Positions 1,876 through 40,215 of a DNA stretch of 64,000 nt are shown here, one piece after another. Made by a program: the position numbers and the translations under genes. A model generated the notes under the pieces. It had not been told where the DNA came from. It searched no databases and saw nothing but the letters and a program-made list of their open reading frames with translations. Position 1 is the stretch's first letter. Every line of letters begins with the position of its first letter. Source of the stretch: Aurantiacibacter odishensis (GTDB lineage: Bacteria; Pseudomonadota; Alphaproteobacteria; Sphingomonadales; Sphingomonadaceae); the NCBI RefSeq assembly GCF_003605195.1, contig NZ_QYOS01000017.1, forward strand, positions 1-64,000, written 5' to 3'.

Positions 1876-2059
1876 ACGGGCCTTTGTCATGTATTGAACA
1901 TGGAAGGCATTCGCTCTAGCAAGGCTTCTGCGGATACCGGGCCCCTCTGGCGGGCGGCGCAAGCCACCCGTGATGTCGGACCGCATCGGACAACCGATGC
2001 CGTTCGACGGAGCCAATCTCCTCCAATCGCATCGGTTGATGAGAAGAGGAGTGTATTCA

Positions 2060-37265: not shown

Positions 37266-38018
37266 ATGGCTGGTGAACTCAGAGACAATCGCGGTCGCGG
37301 CGATGCCGAGTGGGGCTTACCCCCGGTCCATCCCGAGGGCCGCAAGTTCGGCATGATCGCCACGGCGATTGCGCTGGCGGTGCTGGTTATCTTCGACTGG
37401 GACTGGCTGGGCTGGCCGCTGCTGTTGCTGGCGGTTGGCGTCTTTGCCTTTTTTCGCGATCCCGAGCGTGTCGTGCCGCAGGGCGACAAGCTGATGGTGT
37501 CCCCGGCCGATGGTCTGGTGACGCTGATCTCGCAGGTAACGCCGCCGACGGAACTGCAGAACGCGACCGAGGATGGCGGCCGCGGGCTGGGCAAGGACCC
37601 CGTGACGCGCATATCCATCTTCATGTCTGTCTTCGACGTGCACGTGAACCGATCGCCGATATCGGGCACGATCAGGCGCATCGTCTATATCCCCGGCGCT
37701 TTCATGAATGCCGATCTGGACAAGGCGAGCGAGGAGAACGAGCGCCAGCACGTGCTGATCGAGCGGGGCGACGGGACCGCCATCGGCTTCACGCAAATTG
37801 CCGGGATGGTGGCGCGGCGCATTGTGCCGTTCGTGAAGCCGGGCGATATCGTCGCCGCCGGACAGCGGGTCGGACTGATCCGCTTTGGCAGCCGGGTGGA
37901 TGTCTATCTGCCCGCAGGGACGGAACCCAAAGTGCTGCTGGGGCAGCGCGTTATCGCAGGAGAGACAGTGCTGGCCGAGATCGGGACGGTAGGGCTGCTT
38001 GAAGGAGTAAGCCAGTGA
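37266..38018 (+). CDS. psd: Phosphatidylserine decarboxylase proenzyme, small (PSD-A) type
   Basis: Produces phosphatidylethanolamine from phosphatidylserine; 250 aa. Two hydrophobic helices at the N-terminus (IATAIALAVLVIF and LLLLAVGVFAFF) are followed by FRDPER and SPADGLVT. The self-cleavage/pyruvoyl site is RFGSRVDV, G208-S209. Family conserved parts include IFMSVFDVHVNRSPI and NERQHVLIE. Its stop overlaps the start of pssA, so both enzymes of the same pathway are translationally coupled. Confidence 0.95.
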   Translation: MAGELRDNRGRGDAEWGLPPVHPEGRKFGMIATAIALAVLVIFDWDWLGWPLLLLAVGVFAFFRDPERVVPQGDKLMVSPADGLVTLISQVTPPTELQNATEDGGRGLGKDPVTRISIFMSVFDVHVNRSPISGTIRRIVYIPGAFMNADLDKASEENERQHVLIERGDGTAIGFTQIAGMVARRIVPFVKPGDIVAAGQRVGLIRFGSRVDVYLPAGTEPKVLLGQRVIAGETVLAEIGTVGLLEGVSQ

Positions 38019-38989
38019 GGCCAGGCCAGGACGACACGAAAGACTTTGATGAGGACGAGACAGTAACCGCCGGTCCTGCATGGCTCGGTCCCAAGGCCAG
38101 CGAGCATGAGCGGGTAACGCGGTCGCGTGCGGGGAAGGGACTGTCGCTGCGTGCTGTCTTGCCCAATGCGATCACCGCGGCGGCACTGTGTTCGGGGCTT
38201 ACCAGCATTCTTTTCGCCATCGGCGGGCAGTGGCCGCAGTCGGTCTTCGCCATGATCCTTGCCGGCGTGCTGGACGCGATGGATGGCCGAATTGCTCGCC
38301 TGCTGAAGGCGCAGTCGCGCTTCGGTGCGGAGCTCGATAGCCTCTCGGATTCAGCCAGCTTCGGCATTGCGCCTGCGTTGGTGCTTTACCTGTGGGCGCT
38401 GGTGGATGCGCCGCGTCTCGGCTGGCTCGCGGCGTTGGCTTATGCCATTTGCTGCGCTCTGCGATTGGCCCGCTTCAACGCGCAGATCGATATGGAAGAA
38501 CAGCCGCACAAGTCGGCGGGCTATCTCACGGGTGTTCCTGCGCCAATGGGAGCAGGCTTTGCCTTCATGCCGGTCTATCTCTGGTTGGCGACGGGCGAGC
38601 CGATCTTCCGCGAACCCTTGCTGGTTGGCCCGTGGATCATCCTGGTTGCGGTGCTGATGGTATCCAACATGGCGACGCCCAGCTGGAAGTCCCTCGCGCC
38701 GTCCGGCGATTTCAAGCTCGCTTTCATCGCGGTGGCCGGGCTGCTGGTGGGCGGCCTGCTGATCGAAACCTGGTGGACGCTGGTGCTGATCGGCGTTGTC
38801 TACATGGCGCTGATCGTCTGGTCGGTCAGCGGCTATGCCAAGGTGAAGCGGGAGCGGCGCGCTGCCGCTGCGGGCGACGTGCCGGACAATGGGCCGGACG
38901 ACGAGGAAACCGCTACGCCGCCATCCGGGCGAAAGCCTCTTGCGGTCGACGAAGTGGACGCGGCTCTGCAAGAGAAGCGCGACCGATAG
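38015..38989 (+). CDS. pssA: CDP-diacylglycerol-serine O-phosphatidyltransferase
   Basis: Integral membrane enzyme making phosphatidylserine, 324 aa. The CDP-alcohol phosphotransferase signature is complete: D90-G91, A94-R95, G104, D108 and D112 in AMDGRIARLLKAQSRFGAEL-DSLSD. About eight hydrophobic helices follow. A GTG start overlaps the psd stop (GTGA). The last 77 bases overlap, in antisense, the end of the 66-aa minus-strand gene. Confidence 0.95.
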   Translation: MRPGQDDTKDFDEDETVTAGPAWLGPKASEHERVTRSRAGKGLSLRAVLPNAITAAALCSGLTSILFAIGGQWPQSVFAMILAGVLDAMDGRIARLLKAQSRFGAELDSLSDSASFGIAPALVLYLWALVDAPRLGWLAALAYAICCALRLARFNAQIDMEEQPHKSAGYLTGVPAPMGAGFAFMPVYLWLATGEPIFREPLLVGPWIILVAVLMVSNMATPSWKSLAPSGDFKLAFIAVAGLLVGGLLIETWWTLVLIGVVYMALIVWSVSGYAKVKRERRAAAAGDVPDNGPDDEETATPPSGRKPLAVDEVDAALQEKRDR

Positions 38990-39113
38990 CGGCCAGTTCG
39001 CGGCGCGTCTGGCGCCAGCGGACGACGCCATAACGGATGCAGGCGTGGCAGGAGAGCAGGGCAATCGCTGCCACCAGTCCGAAGAAAATCGAAATCGCCA
39101 GTGCAAATGCCAT
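38913..39113 (-). CDS. 66-aa basic single-span membrane microprotein, predicted SOS (LexA) controlled
   Basis: Residues 2-24 form a hydrophobic helix (AFALAISIFFGLVAAIALLS) with two cysteines just after it (CHAC). A basic tail follows (RWRQTRRELAAIGR, RPLRRPQE), so the N-terminus is likely outside and the tail cytoplasmic. The ATG at 39113 follows AAAGGATC at about nine bases. Upstream lies a TTGACC promoter overlapped by three perfect GTTC-N7-GTTC boxes, oriented to serve this gene. The 3' end overlaps pssA in antisense for 77 bp. No family recognised; the pattern recalls SOS-induced division inhibitors such as SidA of Caulobacter, by analogy only. Confidence 0.7.
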   Translation of the reverse strand: MAFALAISIFFGLVAAIALLSCHACIRYGVVRWRQTRRELAAIGRASLAEPRPLRRPQEAFARMAA

Positions 39114-39175
39114 AAACCGTGATCCTTTGGCTCAAAGCCCCTCCGGCGACCATCGAATGCCGGAACCGCCTGTTT

Positions 39176-39190
39176 GTTCCTGATGCGTTC
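39176..39190. promoter_or_regulatory. LexA-type box 1 (GTTC-N7-GTTC)
   Basis: GTTC at 39176-39179 and 39187-39190 with exactly seven bases between, the alphaproteobacterial LexA direct repeat. It is preceded by TTT. It lies near the predicted transcription start of the minus-strand microprotein gene. Confidence 0.75.
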
Positions 39191-39219
39191 TTTGTTCCAA
39201 TTTCGTTCCTGTCGGTCAA
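39191..39219 (-). promoter_or_regulatory. Promoter of the membrane microprotein gene
   Basis: Minus-strand TTGACC (39219-39214), a 17-bp spacer, then AACAAA (39196-39191). The -35 is near consensus; the -10 matches 3 of 6. Box 3 is just upstream of the -35, box 2 overlaps the spacer and -10, and box 1 covers the start region, an arrangement suited to repression. Confidence 0.5.
39194..39208. promoter_or_regulatory. LexA-type box 2 (GTTC-N7-GTTC)
   Basis: GTTC at 39194-39197 and 39205-39208 with seven bases between, preceded by TTT. It begins four bases after box 1 ends and overlaps the predicted minus-strand -10 and spacer. Confidence 0.75.
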
Positions 39220-39226
39220 GCACTTT

Positions 39227-39241
39227 GTTCCGCTTGTGTTC
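39227..39241. promoter_or_regulatory. LexA-type box 3 (GTTC-N7-GTTC)
   Basis: GTTC at 39227-39230 and 39238-39241 with seven bases between, preceded by TTT. Its first half-site is 33 bases, about three helical turns, from the first half-site of box 2. It lies immediately upstream of the minus-strand TTGACC. Confidence 0.75.
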
Positions 39242-39441: not shown

Positions 39442-40215
39442 ATGGCGGCACCTACCGTCACGATGCAGCAATTGATCGAGGCCGGCGCACACTTCGGCCA
39501 CCAGACCCACCGCTGGAACCCGCGGATGAAGCCGTACATCTTCGGCAGCCGCAACGGTGTTCACATCATCGACCTGTCGCAGTCCGTGCCCCTGATGGCG
39601 CGCGCGCTAGACTTCGTGTCCTCCACCGTGCGTGCTGGCGGCAAGGTTCTGTTCGTCGGCACCAAGCGTCAGGCGCAGGAGCCGATCGCACAGGCCGCGC
39701 GTGCCTGCGGCCAGCACTTCGTCAACCACCGCTGGCTGGGCGGCATGCTCACCAACTGGAAGACGATTTCGCAGTCGATCAAGCGCCTGAAGAACCTGGA
39801 AGAGCAGCTTGCCGGCGACACCAGCCTGCTGACCAAGAAGGAAGTCCTGCAGCTGACGCGCGAGCGTGACAAGCTGGAACTTTCGCTCGGCGGCATCCGC
39901 GACATGGGCGGTATTCCGGACGTGATGTTCGTGATCGACGCCAACAAGGAAGACCTGGCCATCAAGGAAGCCGGCGTGCTCGGCATCCCCGTGATCGCCG
40001 TGCTCGACACCAACGTCGACCCGACCGGCATCGCTTTCCCGATCCCCGGTAACGACGACGCAAGCCGCGCCGTGCGCCTGTACTGCGACGCCGTGGCCCA
40101 GGCCGCGACCACCGGCAAGACCGAAGGCGTGGTGGACTCGGGTGCCGACATCGGCGCCATGGAACAGCCGCCCGAAGAGGCTGCCGTTGCCGAAGAAGCC
40201 AAGGCCGACGCCTGA
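39442..40215 (+). CDS. rpsB: 30S ribosomal protein S2
   Basis: Ribosomal protein of 257 aa. Signatures: [52 protein letters not shown] and [19 protein letters not shown]. The C-terminal tail is acidic and Ala-rich ([15 protein letters not shown]), a usual alphaproteobacterial extension. It is followed by tsf across a 110-bp interval with a perfect hairpin. Confidence 0.98.

Follow-up and report, generated by a model that had tools for sequence, protein, structure and literature searches.

Small single-pass membrane proteins that are LexA-regulated or otherwise induced by damage are known division inhibitors in other bacteria. SidA of the alphaproteobacterium Caulobacter crescentus is a 29-aa inner-membrane protein, SOS-induced under LexA, which binds FtsW; DidA of the same species (71 aa) acts on FtsN and is induced by DriD independently of SOS (PMC4211646). 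YneA of Bacillus subtilis is SOS-induced and has, besides a LysM peptidoglycan-binding domain, one membrane helix, which binds FtsW; FtsW has been proposed as a common target of small division inhibitors (PMC13396833). SosA of Staphylococcus aureus, an SOS-induced membrane division inhibitor of 77 aa, is under short-lived-protein control at its C terminus, which is extracellular and cut by CtpA (PMC6851548). SulA of Escherichia coli, SOS-induced likewise, is a cytosolic division inhibitor that targets FtsZ and is cleared by Lon (PMC6851548, PMC13396833). The LexA operator motif in Caulobacter is GTTC-N7-GTTC, and ∼97% of SOS promoters there have one box (PMC12700426). The literature searched (most subscription papers apart) contained neither a description of the gene reported below or of a Sphingomonadales division inhibitor, nor an account of how Sphingomonadales halt division after DNA damage.

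We analyzed a 64,000-nt stretch of Aurantiacibacter odishensis DNA, ‘the window’ in what follows, which carries three clustered copies of the motif known from Caulobacter; the promoter at which they lie thus differs from the great majority of Caulobacter SOS promoters with their single box (PMC12700426). As one box is usual, three on one promoter point to a product kept tightly repressed because its accidental synthesis would be costly. The likely target of the boxes, judged from the sequence of this genome and its relatives, is the divergent gene of a 66-aa single-pass membrane protein and not rpsB; the initial annotation did not name this small gene. The boxes flank and cover what we presume to be its promoter. 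The features of the locus are as follows, box ranks being those among 88 genomic sites scored by a matrix described below:

38015..38989, plus strand: pssA-like CDP-alcohol phosphatidyltransferase gene (PF01066, 80.5 bits), convergent with the small gene
38913..38989: antisense overlap of the 3′-ends of the small gene and pssA, 77 bp
38913..39113, minus strand: small gene, stop included, predicted 66-aa single-pass membrane protein (translation, relatives, dN/dS <1, structure model)
39122..39127, minus strand: ribosome-binding site AAGGAT of the small gene, read directly in the sequence
39176..39190, plus strand: LexA-type box 3, GTTCCTGATGCGTTC, exact match, rank 12 of 88, over the presumed transcription start
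39191..39196, minus strand: presumed −10 element AACAAA, placed by its 17-nt spacer
39194..39208, plus strand: LexA-type box 2, GTTCCAATTTCGTTC, exact match, rank 7 of 88, in the −35/−10 spacer, 5 nt after TTGACC
39214..39219, minus strand: −35 element TTGACC of the small gene, seen in the sequence
39227..39241, plus strand: LexA-type box 1, GTTCCGCTTGTGTTC, exact match, rank 9 of 88, upstream of the small-gene −35 element
39442..40215, plus strand: rpsB (PF00318, 307 bits), divergent neighbour, which we do not take for the target

The initial annotation had described three perfect GTTC-N7-GTTC repeats, each part of an 18-nt unit TTTGTTCC-N6-GTTC. Both statements are exact: the repeats occupy 39176–39190, 39194–39208 and 39227–39241, all on the plus strand, and the units start at 39173, 39191 and 39224. 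The TTGACC promoter that it placed among them on the minus strand was right as to the −35 element, which lies at 39219–39214 between boxes 1 and 2; the consensus −10 element was not found, as a strict sigma-70 consensus scan gave no promoter at the boxes and the presumed −10 element is not of consensus type.

Counts in the window alone are weak evidence (five copies of the core motif, a number reached by 3 of 100 shuffles); therefore, the whole genome and its relatives were used. In the 3.19-Mb genome the plain GTTC-N7-GTTC core occurs 88 times (37 + 51 copies on the two strands), while the reversed pattern, taken as a control, occurs 61 times (29 + 32), so many single matches must be due to chance. 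The extended form TTGTTC-N7-GTTC has nine copies, three of them at 39176–39241. With clusters defined by neighbours <200 bp apart, these three sites form the sole cluster among the 88, and ∼2e-5 triples of such tightness are expected genome-wide; since no other pair of sites comes within 200 bp, the cluster is not a chance event, in agreement with what the initial annotation had held.

The LexA reading, proposed at the outset from the motif, gains support from other sites of the same genome. The genome has lexA (E 3.6e-52) with GTTCCTTATTCGTTC ∼35 bp ahead of the match, and recA with GTTCCACTCTTGTTC ∼120 bp ahead of it. From family genomes other than that of A. odishensis we took 84 sites lying upstream of rpsB, derived a position matrix from them and ranked the 88 sites with it; the sites of lexA, recA and uvrA came 2nd, 10th and 11th, those of a PcrA/UvrD-like helicase, RmuC and RadA came 15th, 16th and 17th, and the three boxes of the cluster, scored by a matrix trained elsewhere, were 7th, 9th and 12th. 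The score falls between rank 19 (13.0) and rank 20 (10.5). Ten open frames adjoining high-ranked sites were compared with NCBIfam: (i) the LexA and RadA frames scored above the curated cut-offs; (ii) the UvrA, PcrA and RmuC frames had strong matches, below the cut-offs, on stretches ending inside the gene; (iii) the ImuA frame had a weak match; (iv) the remaining four, including the frame at the top-ranked site, received no convincing NCBIfam name. Some high-scoring sites lie by genes without a clear SOS role (G000:C11:748737, C3:18749, C21:70524, C11:33419 and C11:449523), the first of them ranking above the site of lexA itself. From the motif and its genomic company we infer LexA binding and damage induction at the boxes, and control of the small gene by LexA appears very probable.

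To see how far the arrangement extends we read the DNA upstream of rpsB in 90 of the 119 rpsB-bearing genomes of the family (30 loci and 60 stretches, 78 genera; genomes G022 and G012 had short contigs at rpsB). Conservation in relatives, which the initial annotation had named as a check, was borne out: three relatives found through the protein (Aurantiacibacter zhengii, Aurantiacibacter sp. and an uncultured Sphingomonadaceae bacterium; loci L040, L041 and L042) have three boxes each, and 69 of the 90 genomes had at least one perfect box in the 700 bp before rpsB, with 0.87 expected by chance. The GTTC was always on the rpsB strand, never reversed. Fifty-four of the 69 genomes had one box, 12 had two and three had three. 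A small membrane ORF passed an automatic filter in 67 of the 69 box-bearing genomes, and in the remaining two (G066 and G091) the ORF was found by profile search.

Twenty-one genomes had no perfect box at rpsB. Two of them (G070 and G023) have the ORF with a one-mismatch box after TTGAC. The other 19 were read behind pssA, where 17 had a perfect box; a small membrane ORF passed the screen in 15 of these 17, while the ORFs of G113 and G030 were shorter, with 38 aa (read by eye) and 35 aa, respectively. No box was present behind pssA in G087; none was seen in G040 either, where the contig ends 587 bp past the match and absence is uncertain. In all, 86 of the 90 genomes and 75 of the 78 genera have a perfect box at the position of the small gene. 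A distant rpsB does not part the box from the small gene, as seen in G085 (rpsB 11 kb away) and G038 (161 kb). As 17 of the 19 genomes with box-less rpsB have the box behind pssA, we conclude that the box tracks the small gene and not rpsB; at the level of sequence, the pairing of the two is family-wide. Loci L104 and L172 were judged not to hold the small gene and were dropped, and L158 and L165 were excluded from alignment A1.

The promoter geometry points the same way. In 62 of the 69 box-bearing genomes TTGAC occurs ≤14 nt before a box when read towards the small gene, the commonest gap being 5 nt (40 of 62), and in none of the 69 when read towards rpsB; judged by sequence, the operator would thus lie over the promoter of the small gene, with the −10 element placed by its spacing.

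The small protein evolves fast, with a mean column identity of 19% in an alignment of 70 members; still, profiles made from half of 69 members recovered most of the other half (32 of 35 and 30 of 34). We computed dN/dS over the first 41 codons, which in A. odishensis lie outside the overlap with pssA, and obtained 0.13–0.26 for nine of 10 pairs and 0.56 for the remaining pair. As dN/dS is <1 outside the overlap, the small protein itself is under purifying selection. A hydrophobic stretch starts near residue 3, and AlphaFold2 gave one helix over residues 2–47 with high confidence and a weaker tail, so the product is predicted to be a single-helix membrane protein. In 67 of 69 members the tail carries more positive charge than the N terminus (mean net charge +6.9). 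By the positive-inside rule the positively charged side stays in the cytoplasm, hence the tail is predicted to be cytoplasmic. Among the 70 members, searches of Pfam, NCBIfam and PHROGs gave no family common to more than one member at E 0.01 or better; isolated single-member matches were to two families in Pfam, three in NCBIfam and none in PHROGs. Being short, fast-evolving and overlapped by pssA, the gene may be overlooked by annotation.

Compared by description only, the protein would share with SidA its small size, LexA control and a place in the inner membrane of an alphaproteobacterium, and differs from it in length and in having a tail (PMC4211646). DidA is similar in size, has one membrane helix and is likewise encoded in a frame overlapping another annotated frame; it differs in its DriD-driven, SOS-independent induction and in having FtsN as target (PMC4211646). 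YneA shares the presumed SOS induction and the one helix, whereas its LysM domain has no counterpart here, as none of the 70 members matched the Pfam domain (PMC13396833). With SosA the likeness would be in SOS induction and membrane location, the difference in the side on which the C terminus lies; SulA, being cytosolic, would share the SOS induction and the effect on division (PMC6851548, PMC13396833).

One could therefore picture the following course of events. LexA on the three tandem boxes would shut off the divergent small gene; upon DNA damage, self-cleavage of LexA stimulated by RecA would free the promoter. The 66-aa product would insert in the inner membrane, with its N-terminal helix in the membrane and its basic tail in the cytoplasm, and would most likely block septum synthesis through contact of this helix with a late divisome protein, e.g. 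FtsW or FtsN, making division wait until repair is done. Once LexA returns, synthesis of the small protein would end, and the ssrA-like AA end of the A. odishensis protein may hasten its removal by ClpXP. The sequences themselves show the operators, the promoter geometry, a protein-coding gene and conservation across the family; the division block, the divisome target and the degradation are what we infer. By analogy with the small inhibitors described elsewhere, we consider it reasonably probable that the small gene is an SOS-induced division brake; the whole chain, from LexA repression through release upon damage to a SidA-like brake, is the account towards which we lean on balance. If it is right, a further small membrane brake would stand beside SidA, YneA and SosA, with a bearing on the proposal that FtsW is a common target (PMC13396833). 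There is one candidate gene with a mapped operator per genome in 75 of 78 genera; therefore, the question of division arrest in Sphingomonadales becomes a single-gene experiment.

Other readings of the locus have to be weighed. That the cluster is a chance repeat, or a repeat unrelated to LexA, has in its favour the commonness of single core copies (88 versus 61 for the reversed pattern); we regard it as negligible given the uniqueness of the cluster among the 88 sites, the success of a matrix from other genomes in picking out lexA, recA and uvrA, and the excess of boxes in relatives (69 of 90 genomes versus 0.87 expected). Repression of rpsB (and tsf) by LexA, which would slow the making of ribosomes ahead of damage or couple translation to SOS, would agree with the position of the box ≤700 bp upstream of rpsB and with the constant GTTC strand, the boxes of lexA and recA being oriented alike relative to their own genes. 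The uvrA box is oriented oppositely to uvrA, though, so orientation does not decide the target, and with TTGAC facing rpsB in none of 69 genomes and 17 of 19 genomes with box-less rpsB carrying the box behind pssA, this reading is very unlikely.

Tight repression would fit a toxin as well as a division inhibitor. The product could be a TisB-like SOS toxin, lowering membrane potential and bringing about dormancy rather than a divisome block: it is small, hydrophobic and, by its sequence, LexA-controlled, the presence of several boxes suggests a harmful product under tight repression, and two members have just 35 and 38 aa. TisB has about 29 aa and lacks a long basic tail, whereas most members here have such a tail, with the mean net charge given above, and presence in 86 of 90 genomes is more like that of a housekeeping checkpoint; we hold the toxin to be unlikely. 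It is also conceivable that the SOS promoter acts mainly through an antisense transcript into pssA, which would lower phosphatidylserine synthase after damage and make the peptide secondary. In 67 of 69 genomes an automatic test (at times in the wrong frame) had the 3′-end of the small gene overlap the convergent gene in antisense, and pssA and the small gene remain together even where rpsB is elsewhere; on the other hand, the overlap by itself would hold the pair together, the peptide itself is selected outside the overlap (dN/dS <1), and the ORF of G113 stops short of pssA, so we give this reading little credence. The SOS-induced division brake thus remains the favoured account of the small gene.

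Outside the family the arrangement is rare. Reading 29 of 63 rpsB-bearing genomes from other families of the class, we saw no box ≤900 bp upstream of rpsB in 27; the other two, L233 and L234, have one GTTC-N7-GTTC there. Sixty-six genomes of other families were searched for pssA; 48 had it, and ∼1.5 kb or less was read behind it, with no box in 47 of the 48. The exception is G149, which belongs to a different family of the order; some 1 kb past its pssA match lie two boxes and, behind them (L301:2776-2956, minus strand), a single-helix ORF of 60 aa with one hydrophobic stretch, whose product may be an analogous membrane protein under SOS control. The profile of the small protein matched in 22 of 118 genomes of the order, all in this family, and among 24 chosen genomes gave three convincing matches only (G066, G085 and G038). 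The profile is insensitive: 17 of the 19 genomes with box-less rpsB turned out to have the box behind pssA, and of the genomes that the box revealed the profile had matched few, so the most divergent members rest on position and hydrophobicity.

A conserved C-terminal degron was considered and rejected. Forty-eight of 71 ORFs first seemed to end in AAA; the ORF script, however, was biased to ends AA, VA, TA or LA, and the conserved (I/V)-K-R-Q-R codons of pssA read AAA-stop on the opposite strand. In most relatives the AAA-stop of the small ORF lies opposite this KRQR-like motif of pssA, and because the motif explains most AAA ends, a conserved degron is not claimed. An automatic tally, in which 25 of 27 ends ‘not opposite motif’ were AA, is unreliable, several rows being in the wrong antisense frame. 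By eye, ∼6 of 11 lineages with the stop not opposite the motif end in AA: the A. odishensis genus (in which G103 ends in TA), G038, G108, G006, G056 and G101. The A. odishensis protein ends in MAA and three relatives in LAA, opposite another part of pssA. As the tmRNA tag of the genome ends in ALAIAA, which the AA end of the A. odishensis protein resembles, a ClpXP signal at this end is possible.

We observed a further repeat in the leaders of relatives. Of 67 leaders, 35 contain TTATCCACA on the message strand with ≤1 mismatch, versus 0.4 in shuffles, and six have it on the opposite strand; in 24 selected leaders it lies, as read by eye, within direct repeats ∼11 bp apart. In many relatives (e.g. 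L145, L102 and L154) the stretch from LexA box to start codon contains repeats of TTWTCCACA type, and the A. odishensis leader has no such repeat. We take the TTATCCACA repeats, from the DnaA consensus, to be DnaA-like boxes, and DnaA may bind them in these relatives. One could speculate about a checkpoint reading both damage and replication, with LexA on the promoter, DnaA-like boxes in the leaders of relatives and antisense transcription into pssA, so that septum and phospholipid synthesis would be cut together; we find this combination improbable.

Candidate RNA structures were also considered. A leader hairpin suggested by single folds was dropped, as an alignment of 24 leaders (chosen from 66 for carrying the repeat) gave 0 consensus pairs, and a conserved rpsB leader RNA was abandoned; two of 85 stretches ended on the start codon as placed. 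Rfam gave no match around the locus at E up to 1; elsewhere in the window, it matched a terC RNA at 1928–1988 (plus strand, 51.3 bits).
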